Positions 14,572 through 15,634 of a stretch of DNA of 35,956 bases are shown piece after piece. This stretch comes from a bacterium (lineage in GTDB: Bacteria; Pseudomonadota; Alphaproteobacteria; Rs-D84). Positions within the stretch are counted from its first letter, which is position 1. Every line of letters begins with the position of its first letter. The notes below the pieces were generated by a model. That model was not told the origin of the DNA. It worked only from the letters and a program-made list of their open reading frames with translations, and did not search any database. Where the stretch lies: the NCBI GenBank assembly GCA_014803525.1, contig JAAVBP010000022.1:1-35956 (forward strand). The letters are read 5' to 3'. The translations under genes were made by a program, and so were the position numbers.

Positions 14572-14841
14572 TTAGATATAATTGATTGGATTTTTTGTCA
14601 TGCCCAGATACCCATAAAGAGCAATTATATCAAAATATGGCACTTCGTGACCGGCCTCGTAACCTTCCAAAGCAGATTCTGTTATCTGCAATTTATCAGA
14701 AATTTCTTTTAACGAAATCTGCTTTCGTGTGCGTATAATCTTCATAACCATTCCAAACTCGTGATAGAAAGCTTCGCGCGCCTCTACCGGGATGCCACAG
14801 AATTGTTCAGACATTTTTTGTAATTTTCTTCTTTCAAACAT
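14572..14841 (-). CDS. Small XRE-family helix-turn-helix regulator
   Basis: This 89-residue protein has a helix-turn-helix of Cro/CI type at about 32-75: MVMKIIRTRKQISLKEISDK, then a recognition-helix region ITESALEGYEAG, then YFDIIALYGYLGM. The order and spacing (KEISDKLQI-TESALEGYEAG) match HTH_3. I chose ATG 14841 (MFERRKL) because AAGGAG is well placed. No good promoter is seen between this gene and the terminator of the upstream non-coding unit, whose T tract ends 25 nt before the ATG. Its expression may therefore depend on read-through of that terminator. The targets are unknown. Confidence 0.82.
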   Translation of the reverse strand: MFERRKLQKMSEQFCGIPVEAREAFYHEFGMVMKIIRTRKQISLKEISDKLQITESALEGYEAGHEVPYFDIIALYGYLGMTKNPINYI

Positions 14842-14866: not shown

Positions 14867-14894
14867 AAAAAAAATCACCACTATAAAGCGGTGA
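14867..14894 (-). terminator. Intrinsic terminator of unit A, just before the XRE gene
   Basis: On the minus strand TCACCGC and GTGGTGA pair around TTTATA and are followed by eight T residues. The XRE start codon is 25 nt further on, so this is either an RNA 3' end or an attenuator. Confidence 0.8.
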
Positions 14895-14920
14895 CTGGAT
14901 GTTTACGACTATATTGAAGA
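14893..14920. repeat. 28-nt direct repeat, copy 1
   Basis: It is identical to 15143-15170 and covers the 3' strands of P2 and P1 in unit A. The 250-nt spacing shows that units A and B arose by duplication. Confidence 0.95.
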
Positions 14921-15086
14921 ATAGTGCGACTTATTTGTTATTCGCCGCCATCCAGCACCCAAAGGCGCCGGATTAGTTTTTACTTCCGTCAAATCATTAA
15001 CGTCACGCTAAATCATTAACTTCAAACTTCAATTTGGGTCGTAACTCCCAGCCAGGCCATAAACCGGTATATGACCATGCGTTATC

Positions 15087-15115
15087 AATATATACCACAT
15101 TGAAAAAAAATGCAA
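15087..15115 (-). promoter_or_regulatory. Promoter of unit A
   Basis: TTGCAT (15110-15115), 17 nt, then TATATT (15087-15092) on the minus strand. Confidence 0.6.
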
Positions 15116-15131
15116 TATGAAATAAATCCTT

Positions 15132-15309
15132 GTCGTGATGACGACTGGATGTTTACGACTATATTGAAGACATAGCGCGGATTATTCAAGTATTCTCCGC
15201 CATCCAGTCGCCATAAGCGAATGGAGGTTTTACGGTCGCAATAGCTTCCAACTTCAAAAAATTCGTAAAGTTCGACTCTAATTATCCAAGCTTAATAGAT
15301 AAATAAAGT
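15132..15309 (-). ncRNA. Structured non-coding unit B (middle of three)
   Basis: The predicted start is near 15309. P1 pairs 15263-15269 with 15152-15158 (TTTACGA/TCGTAAA). P2 pairs 15201-15210 with 15142-15151, a perfect 10-bp helix. P3 pairs 15196-15200 with 15177-15181 (GCGGA/TCCGC) around a 14-nt A/T-rich loop. The order is the same as in units A and C, again a pseudoknot. The 3' end is less clear: a small GTCGT/ACGAC hairpin (15132-15145) shares bases with P2 and has only a broken T tract after it. Read-through into unit A is possible. Confidence 0.6.
15143..15170. repeat. 28-nt direct repeat, copy 2
   Basis: It is identical to 14893-14920 and lies at the same structural position in unit B. 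Confidence 0.95.
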
Positions 15310-15315
15310 AATTGT

Positions 15316-15344
15316 ATTATATTTAATCCAATACAAAATTTCAA
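15316..15344 (-). promoter_or_regulatory. Strong promoter of unit B
   Basis: TTGAAA (15339-15344), exactly 17 nt, then a perfect TATAAT (15316-15321) on the minus strand. Confidence 0.75.
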
Positions 15345-15361
15345 CATGAAAATAAACCCAT

Positions 15362-15391
15362 AAAAAAATGGCCGTCAATTTTAATGACGGC
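15362..15391 (-). terminator. Intrinsic terminator of unit C
   Basis: On the minus strand GCCGTCA and TGACGGC pair around a seven-base loop and are followed by CA and seven T residues. The first GCC of the stem is shared with P2, so pseudoknot and terminator compete by three bases. Confidence 0.85.
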
Positions 15392-15562
15392 TGGAGGTTC
15401 CTAACTACGTCCTTACGAAAATAGTGCAACTTATTCAATATATTCAGTTGCCCCCCAGCCTTTCAGCTGGGATTTTTGAGAGTCTTGTCTGACTCCGTAA
15501 GGACTAGTTATAAAAACACCGTTAGGACACGGGATGCTTCGGTTAATACAACCTATACATCA
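15362..15562 (-). ncRNA. Structured non-coding unit C (first of three), with terminator
   Basis: The predicted start is near 15562 and the end is in the T tract at 15362-15368. P1 is a 14-bp helix with one bulge: 15496-15509 (AACTAGTCCTTACG) with 15403-15417. P2 is 9 bp with one G-U: 15452-15460 (GGCTGGGGG) with 15389-15397 (CCTCCAGCC). P3 pairs GCAACT with AGTTGC (15446-15451 and 15426-15431). Two more hairpins lie between the P1 and P2 5' strands. One of them, CCCAGC/GCTGGG, uses P2 bases and so offers an alternative fold. The sequences of all helices differ from units A and B while pairing is kept. Confidence 0.68.
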
Positions 15563-15568
15563 GGAGAT

Positions 15569-15597
15569 ATTTTATACAATATTCTAATAGATTTCAA
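15569..15597 (-). promoter_or_regulatory. Strong promoter of unit C
   Basis: TTGAAA (15592-15597), 17 nt, then TAAAAT (15569-15574) on the minus strand, about 40 nt after the end of the TfoX-N gene. Confidence 0.7.
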
Positions 15598-15634
15598 TCT
15601 TTTTCAGCAATGCTGCAATCGTGGTGCTCTTCAC

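Follow-up and report, generated by a model that had tools for sequence, protein, structure and literature searches.

Sequence and organization of the tandem units

What does the interval 14867-15562 (minus strand) encode in a 35,956-nucleotide stretch of contig JAAVBP010000022.1 (the whole of which is called the window here), from an alphaproteobacterium of the lineage Rs-D84? The interval is flanked by a TfoX-like gene and by a gene for an 89-aa helix-turn-helix-like protein (Pfam HTH_3, E 0.0014, under the cut-off), and a protein-coding frame across it was not found, there being no ORF of at least 80 aa over 14870-15630 on either strand. It consists of three consecutive units, named C, B and A, in each of which an RNA of about 140-150 nt lies between a promoter-like site and a terminator-like hairpin (Table 1). 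A sequence-only reading of this DNA had placed three minus-strand, non-coding pseudoknotted RNAs here, and all three are indeed matched by a covariance model (R1), the seed of which contains 26 other copies and no window unit; the match with unit C covers 15388-15537 (E 4e-14 in the whole-genome search). The sigma-70 promoters of that reading have the proposed 17-nt spacing in all three units and are good for units C and B, but the -35 box of unit A (TTGCAT, 15115-15110) is poor. The clear intrinsic terminators after units A and C were confirmed by a sequence scan.

Table 1. Features of units C, B and A and of the gene that follows the array (positions are those of the window)
Feature	Position	Strand	Basis or remark
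Unit C promoter TTGAAA-17-TAAAAT	15569-15597	-	consensus scan, 10/12
Unit C target-like strands AACTAGTCCTTACG (a1/b1 equivalent)	15496-15509	-	pairing with 15400-15426
Unit C strand 1 (competitor) CCCAGC	15466-15471	-	local pairing with strand 2
Unit C strand 2, closing stem 5' side GGCTGGGGG	15452-15460	-	R1 match
Unit C hairpin P3, near-invariant loop GAATATATTGAATAA	15431-15445	-	conserved alignment columns
Unit C hairpin P5 and both antisense strands	15400-15426	-	pairing/covariation analysis
Unit C strand 3, closing stem 3' side CCTCCAGCC	15389-15397	-	sequence
Unit C intrinsic terminator, 5' arm shares 3 nt with strand 3	15361-15391	-	
Unit B promoter TTGAAA-17-TATAAT	15316-15344	-	consensus scan, 11/12
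Unit B RNA	15142-15281	-	R1, E 7e-11
Unit B target strands	15269-15263 and 15257-15252	-	
Unit B closing stem; antisense	15210-15201 with 15151-15142; 15175-15152	-	
Unit B terminator-like stem, weak U tract	15132-15145	-	4 nt overlap with closing stem
Unit A promoter TTGCAT-17-TATATT	15087-15115	-	by sequence; missed by consensus scan
Unit A RNA, R1 match	14892-15032	-	E 1e-8
Unit A target strands	15044-15038 (just beyond the R1 match) and 15032-15027	-	
Unit A closing stem; antisense	14955-14949 with 14901-14895; 14924-14902	-	
Unit A intrinsic terminator	14867-14893	-	
Gene of the array, 89-aa helix-turn-helix-like protein	14572-14841	-	ORF; Shine-Dalgarno AAGGAG 14855-14850

Distribution and copy number

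In blastn searches, the window region gives short matches in 50 of the 95 genomes of the same family, often several per genome, and one common layout is seen. R1, when searched in the related genomes as had been suggested, matches 182 of the 201 genomes of the order, in 20 of its 23 genera; as far as they are named, these genomes are metagenome assemblies, and the E-values are rough, being based on a short calibration. The window's own 1.08-Mb genome has 38 copies at E <1e-7, including the three of the window. The non-coding, structured and tandem nature of the units is borne out, and the 38 copies show that it is not a local property. Well-assembled genomes of the genus have 6 to 53 copies and one sister-genus genome has 56, while some other genera have just one or two. 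Outside the order, copies are carried by scattered small-genome Alphaproteobacteria. The named records with matches include Candidatus Enterousia and "Rickettsiales" MAGs; Enterousia belongs to the GTDB order Rs-D84 and has a reduced genome (PMC12306168). The window units are members of a large, unlisted pseudoknotted RNA family, the copies of which can number about 55 in a 1-Mb genome.

A phage origin of the copies was considered when three IMG/VR viral contigs (L208, L209 and L210) were matched, and was rejected, because the genes of L208 and L209 (in which the copies are followed by genes for a secreted protein and an ABC transporter-like protein) look bacterial; the three contigs may be misassigned host DNA. 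In L042, L047 and L051, the copies begin right after a palindromic repeat, ATTGCGAG...GCAATCCAG, upstream of the promoter, suggesting that the units insert beside, or travel with, REP-like repeats.

Fold and covariation

The transcript begins with a hairpin (H1), followed by a second hairpin (H2), the loop of which is target site 1, by target site 2 and by a competitor strand (strand 1). Its middle part is made up of strand 2 (the 5' strand of the closing stem), the hairpins P3 and P5 (the loop of P5 carrying antisense strand 2) and antisense strand 1. Strand 3, which is the 3' strand of that stem, an intrinsic terminator, a Shine-Dalgarno sequence and a small gene complete the order. Both target/antisense pairs match inside each copy and covary, which generates a pseudoknot. 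This is in agreement with the interleaved pairing seen in the sequence-only reading, as the 5' strands find their partner immediately ahead of strand 3; what that reading took as a single helix, P1, is in fact two, the hairpin-loop helix and a second helix.

When considering the 26 other-copy sequences, 96.6% of the cells of 35 pairs in six helices are paired, as compared with 81.1% for shuffled and 32-50% for slid versions. Their covariation score amounts to 0.504, whereas the slid versions reach 0.065-0.122. The covariation, first claimed from the three units, holds in these sequences, where 23 of the 35 pairs vary on both sides. In the H2-loop pseudoknot helix, 99.4% of the cells are paired and five of the six pairs show both-side change. 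The second pseudoknot helix, between target strand 2 and the P5 loop, was tested by permutation because its length and position vary, and its own pairs score 8.32, versus 5.33 for swapped pairs. Jointly, the antisense strands fit their own upstream region over those of other copies (permutation p 0.0005; in the statistics on these two-part keys the copies come from the model or from a loop pattern, and kinship is ignored). Among the 38 copies of the window's own genome, the key combinations are nearly all distinct, as obtained from the model coordinates (the loop-pattern parser had missed GATATA loops); units A and B of the window have one in common, with the same antisense strand lying within an exact 28-nt repeat.

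Hardly any variation between genomes is seen in the 15-nt P3 loop GAATATATTGAATAA (L085 1501-1650 and most copies, window 15445-15431), and a pairing partner for it was not found. It is possible that this loop is a protein or tertiary contact site.

Comparison with C4 antisense RNA and other known systems

In the annotation of the phage P1 record, the order is a1, b1, c4, a2, b2, icd. In the P1 sequence, the H2 loop TTGACAG (a1) pairs with CTGTCAA, and GTTAGTG (b1) pairs with CACTAAC of the second inner loop. The window type corresponds one to one to the C4/a1b1 arrangement of P1 and P7 (RF01695, RF03163) in H1, the H2-loop target, the second target, the closing stem and the two inner hairpins, one antisense strand being located in the second loop and the other ahead of the stem's 3' strand. 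Both the closed three-stem RNA with two antisense strands and the upstream target pair complementary to these strands (a1/b1) are present; the structure and the C4-type architecture are well supported. P1 differs in that a terminator separates a1b1 from c4 and that a2/b2 are present at icd. In the window type, the second target pair (a2/b2) is absent at the downstream ribosome site (p 0.46 and 0.17, with p 0.0005 for RF02221 as the positive control), which leaves P1-like repression of translation unsupported. What is new compared with the known systems is this absence of the second target pair, together with a terminator after the C4 part that overlaps the closing stem.

At the sequence level, the RF01695 covariance model has no match in the window and R1 has none on phage P1, so the C4 claim means "built like", whereas the relation to sRNA-Xcc1 (below) is one of distant homology. 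In the Rfam search that had been called for, only tRNAs were found in the window at the gathering level, and only tRNAs and chance matches when the weak threshold is included; none of the riboswitch classes of Rfam 15 gave a match. The earlier statement that the units match no known family thus holds at curated thresholds, but not when the C4/a1b1 architecture and the distant sequence kinship with sRNA-Xcc1 are taken into account. HDV-like ribozymes have a similar strand order, but their cleavage core was not recognized by eye, and this reading was dropped.

Many C4-like copies per genome, with a varied antisense loop, are also described for the multicopy "Group 1" sRNAs of Acinetobacter baumannii; these have a recognizable C4 motif, and the accessible part of that paper does not report a terminator/closing-stem switch or a gene-leader layout (PMC5320573). 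The C4-like RNAs of P1 and P7 are reported to be processed by RNase P at GGW, and for those of A. baumannii this was deduced from reads (PMC5320573). The closing stem of the window type begins with GGT or GGC, like the RNase P sites given there.

sRNA-Xcc1 (RF02221) is an RNA of Xanthomonas integron cassettes, upstream of symE. Copy L085 matches the whole 87-nt model with 40 bits (E 8e-6 in 351 nt), and further copies in the genus reach 39.7 and 35.2 bits; no match exceeds the 53-bit cut-off, the best being these 40 bits. In the reverse search, R1 matches five RF02221 loci (E 1.3e-5 to 0.005). These reciprocal, sub-threshold profile matches of modest E argue for distant homology between the window type and sRNA-Xcc1. 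The closing stem, the P3 sequence GAATA...GAATAA, the P5 antisense loop and the strand before the 3' side of the stem are common to both, as are, beyond the span of the Rfam model, the upstream H2 loop and target strand. Unlike the window type, sRNA-Xcc1 has an extra hairpin within P3, which splits GAATA...GAATAA. Of its 18 loci, 12 have a terminator between the target sites and the C4 part, and none has one after the C4 part. In L214-L217, from other alphaproteobacterial families, the late terminator occurs together with the extra P3 hairpin of RF02221, and these copies are possibly intermediate between the two types.

The antisense strands of the RF02221 loci have a further match in the next gene's leader (p 0.0005), in many cases at the Shine-Dalgarno sequence, which is comparable to a2/b2 of P1. 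L218, L222, L224, L234 and L236 have target sites upstream as well as a second such pair where the next gene begins; in L218, that gene encodes SymE (Pfam E 1.7e-13). These target pairs make sRNA-Xcc1 look like a repressor of the C4 type that acts on symE and antirepressor-like genes. Rfam does not place it in the C4 clan.

Downstream genes

Using a simple Shine-Dalgarno rule for calling ORFs, 133 of 211 parsed copies are followed by an ORF, which starts 40-59 nt past the closing stem in 103 of the 133. Since most copies are gene leaders, "stand-alone RNA" is a suitable description of the tandem copies only. The downstream proteins are mostly short and helix-turn-helix-like (Pfam E 1e-5 to 0.08, under the cut-offs), with phage regulator profiles in PHROGs; others look secreted, as judged by their N-termini. 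Near-duplicate tiny helix-turn-helix proteins (70-100 aa), many per genome, form families that follow L055, L057, L061 and L081 on the one hand and L053, L056, L060, L062, L065, L068, L074 and L080 on the other. For L055 and L057, the genes are 96% identical and the scaffold parts 86-96%, but the keys only 52%. Other paralogue pairs are reversed, the keys being as similar as, or more similar than, the genes, so that faster change of the keys is a lead and not a rule.

In the leaders of L053-L067, the U tract of the terminator is followed by a matching A tract, and the two form another hairpin directly ahead of the ribosome site; its end pair covaries (CTTTTT...AAAAAG or GTTTTT...AAAAAC).

Terminator overlap and a possible attenuation mechanism

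Of 167 copies picked by the loop pattern, 83% have a terminator immediately past the closing stem, versus 1% of shuffles, and 15% have one between the target sites and the C4 part. Its 5' arm overlaps strand 3 by at least 2 nt in 95% of 142 such copies, most commonly by 3-4 nt of the 7-bp stem. Upstream of the 5' strand of the closing stem is a conserved strand, CUCCAAC, which is complementary to it, and for non-standard closing stems the own upstream strand fits better than the strand of standard copies (7.14 versus 5.74). When loop-pattern copies are folded with the pseudoknot left out, the terminator state averages -32.2 kcal/mol and the C4 state -29.2 kcal/mol (mean difference 3.0); the terminator state is lower in 83% and 1:2 pairing is seen in 86% of its folds. 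This balance could be tipped by the two pseudoknot helices of 6-9 bp.

As the C4 fold would block the late terminator, each copy is probably an on/off switch for the next small gene. In our preferred reading, to which we assign a probability of roughly 0.55, the units are antisense RNA modules of the C4 type that have been turned into transcription attenuators, possibly with an RNase P cut and feedback. Pairing of strand 1 with strand 2 would allow the terminator (3:4) to form, and the gene would be off; pairing of strand 2 with strand 3, in a C4 fold held by the pseudoknot, would block the terminator, and the gene would be read, the C4 fold acting as antiterminator. By analogy with P1/P7 and A. 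baumannii, RNase P may cut where strand 2 begins. The C4-like RNA set free in this way could bind the target sites of later transcripts of the same locus and drive these to the "off" state, which would be copy-specific negative feedback. The transcript 5' ends are expected at the promoter and at GGTTGGAGG, and the 3' ends at the terminator, plus some read-through. The exclusion of 2:3 by 1:2 and 3:4 would be as in four-strand attenuators such as trp leaders; unlike in these, the 2:3 stem here closes a pseudoknotted C4-like RNA. The gene-less tandem units (window B and C) fit this attenuator poorly, and in window unit A the terminator and the closing stem scarcely overlap.

Alternative explanations

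The gene-less tandem units, in which each RNA has a promoter and a terminator of its own (window B and C, L071, L044 and L050), would fit stand-alone C4-like sRNAs acting in trans, the downstream gene being incidental and the terminator merely the RNA end. The high expression reported for the multicopy C4-like "Group 1" sRNAs of A. baumannii (PMC5320573) points the same way. Nevertheless, we consider this unlikely: two-part trans targets are not in excess in about 390 kb of genome (176 versus 155, sd 23), the genes lie at a fixed short distance that is too close for a promoter, and the overlap of terminator and closing stem would be left without a role.

A metabolite-sensing riboswitch, in which a pseudoknot aptamer acts on a terminator platform, would explain the near-invariant 15-nt loop, this platform and the varied downstream genes. 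Yet the pseudoknot helices are the most variable ones and are unlike among nearly all copies of one genome, the opposite of a conserved aptamer core; many copies lack a gene, and no Rfam riboswitch match was found, which makes such a function quite improbable. Slightly less probable still is a self-spreading mobile or repeat-like cassette (promoter, RNA and terminator, with or without a gene) in which the structure serves copying. The dispersed positions, the high copy number in the denser genera, whose genomes hold 6 to 56 copies, with numbers differing between close relatives, and the palindromic repeats adjoining several copies are as expected for such a cassette, but common ends beyond promoter and RNA are not seen, and the co-change of target and antisense strands is not needed for copying alone.

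Implications

Coming back to the C4-type attenuator, a tentative wider reading is that in these small-genome gut Alphaproteobacteria a phage-type antisense immunity RNA has given rise to cis switches all over the genome that are insulated from one another, with the C4 fold as antiterminator and with keys that outpace the genes. If so, these genomes would contain dozens of similar scaffolds, each having its own two-part key, and an uncultured lineage with reduced genomes would have a regulatory RNA family that is very dense for the genome size. One architecture would then unite three RNA families that are listed separately, and dozens of natural, apparently orthogonal key pairs would be available on a single scaffold.
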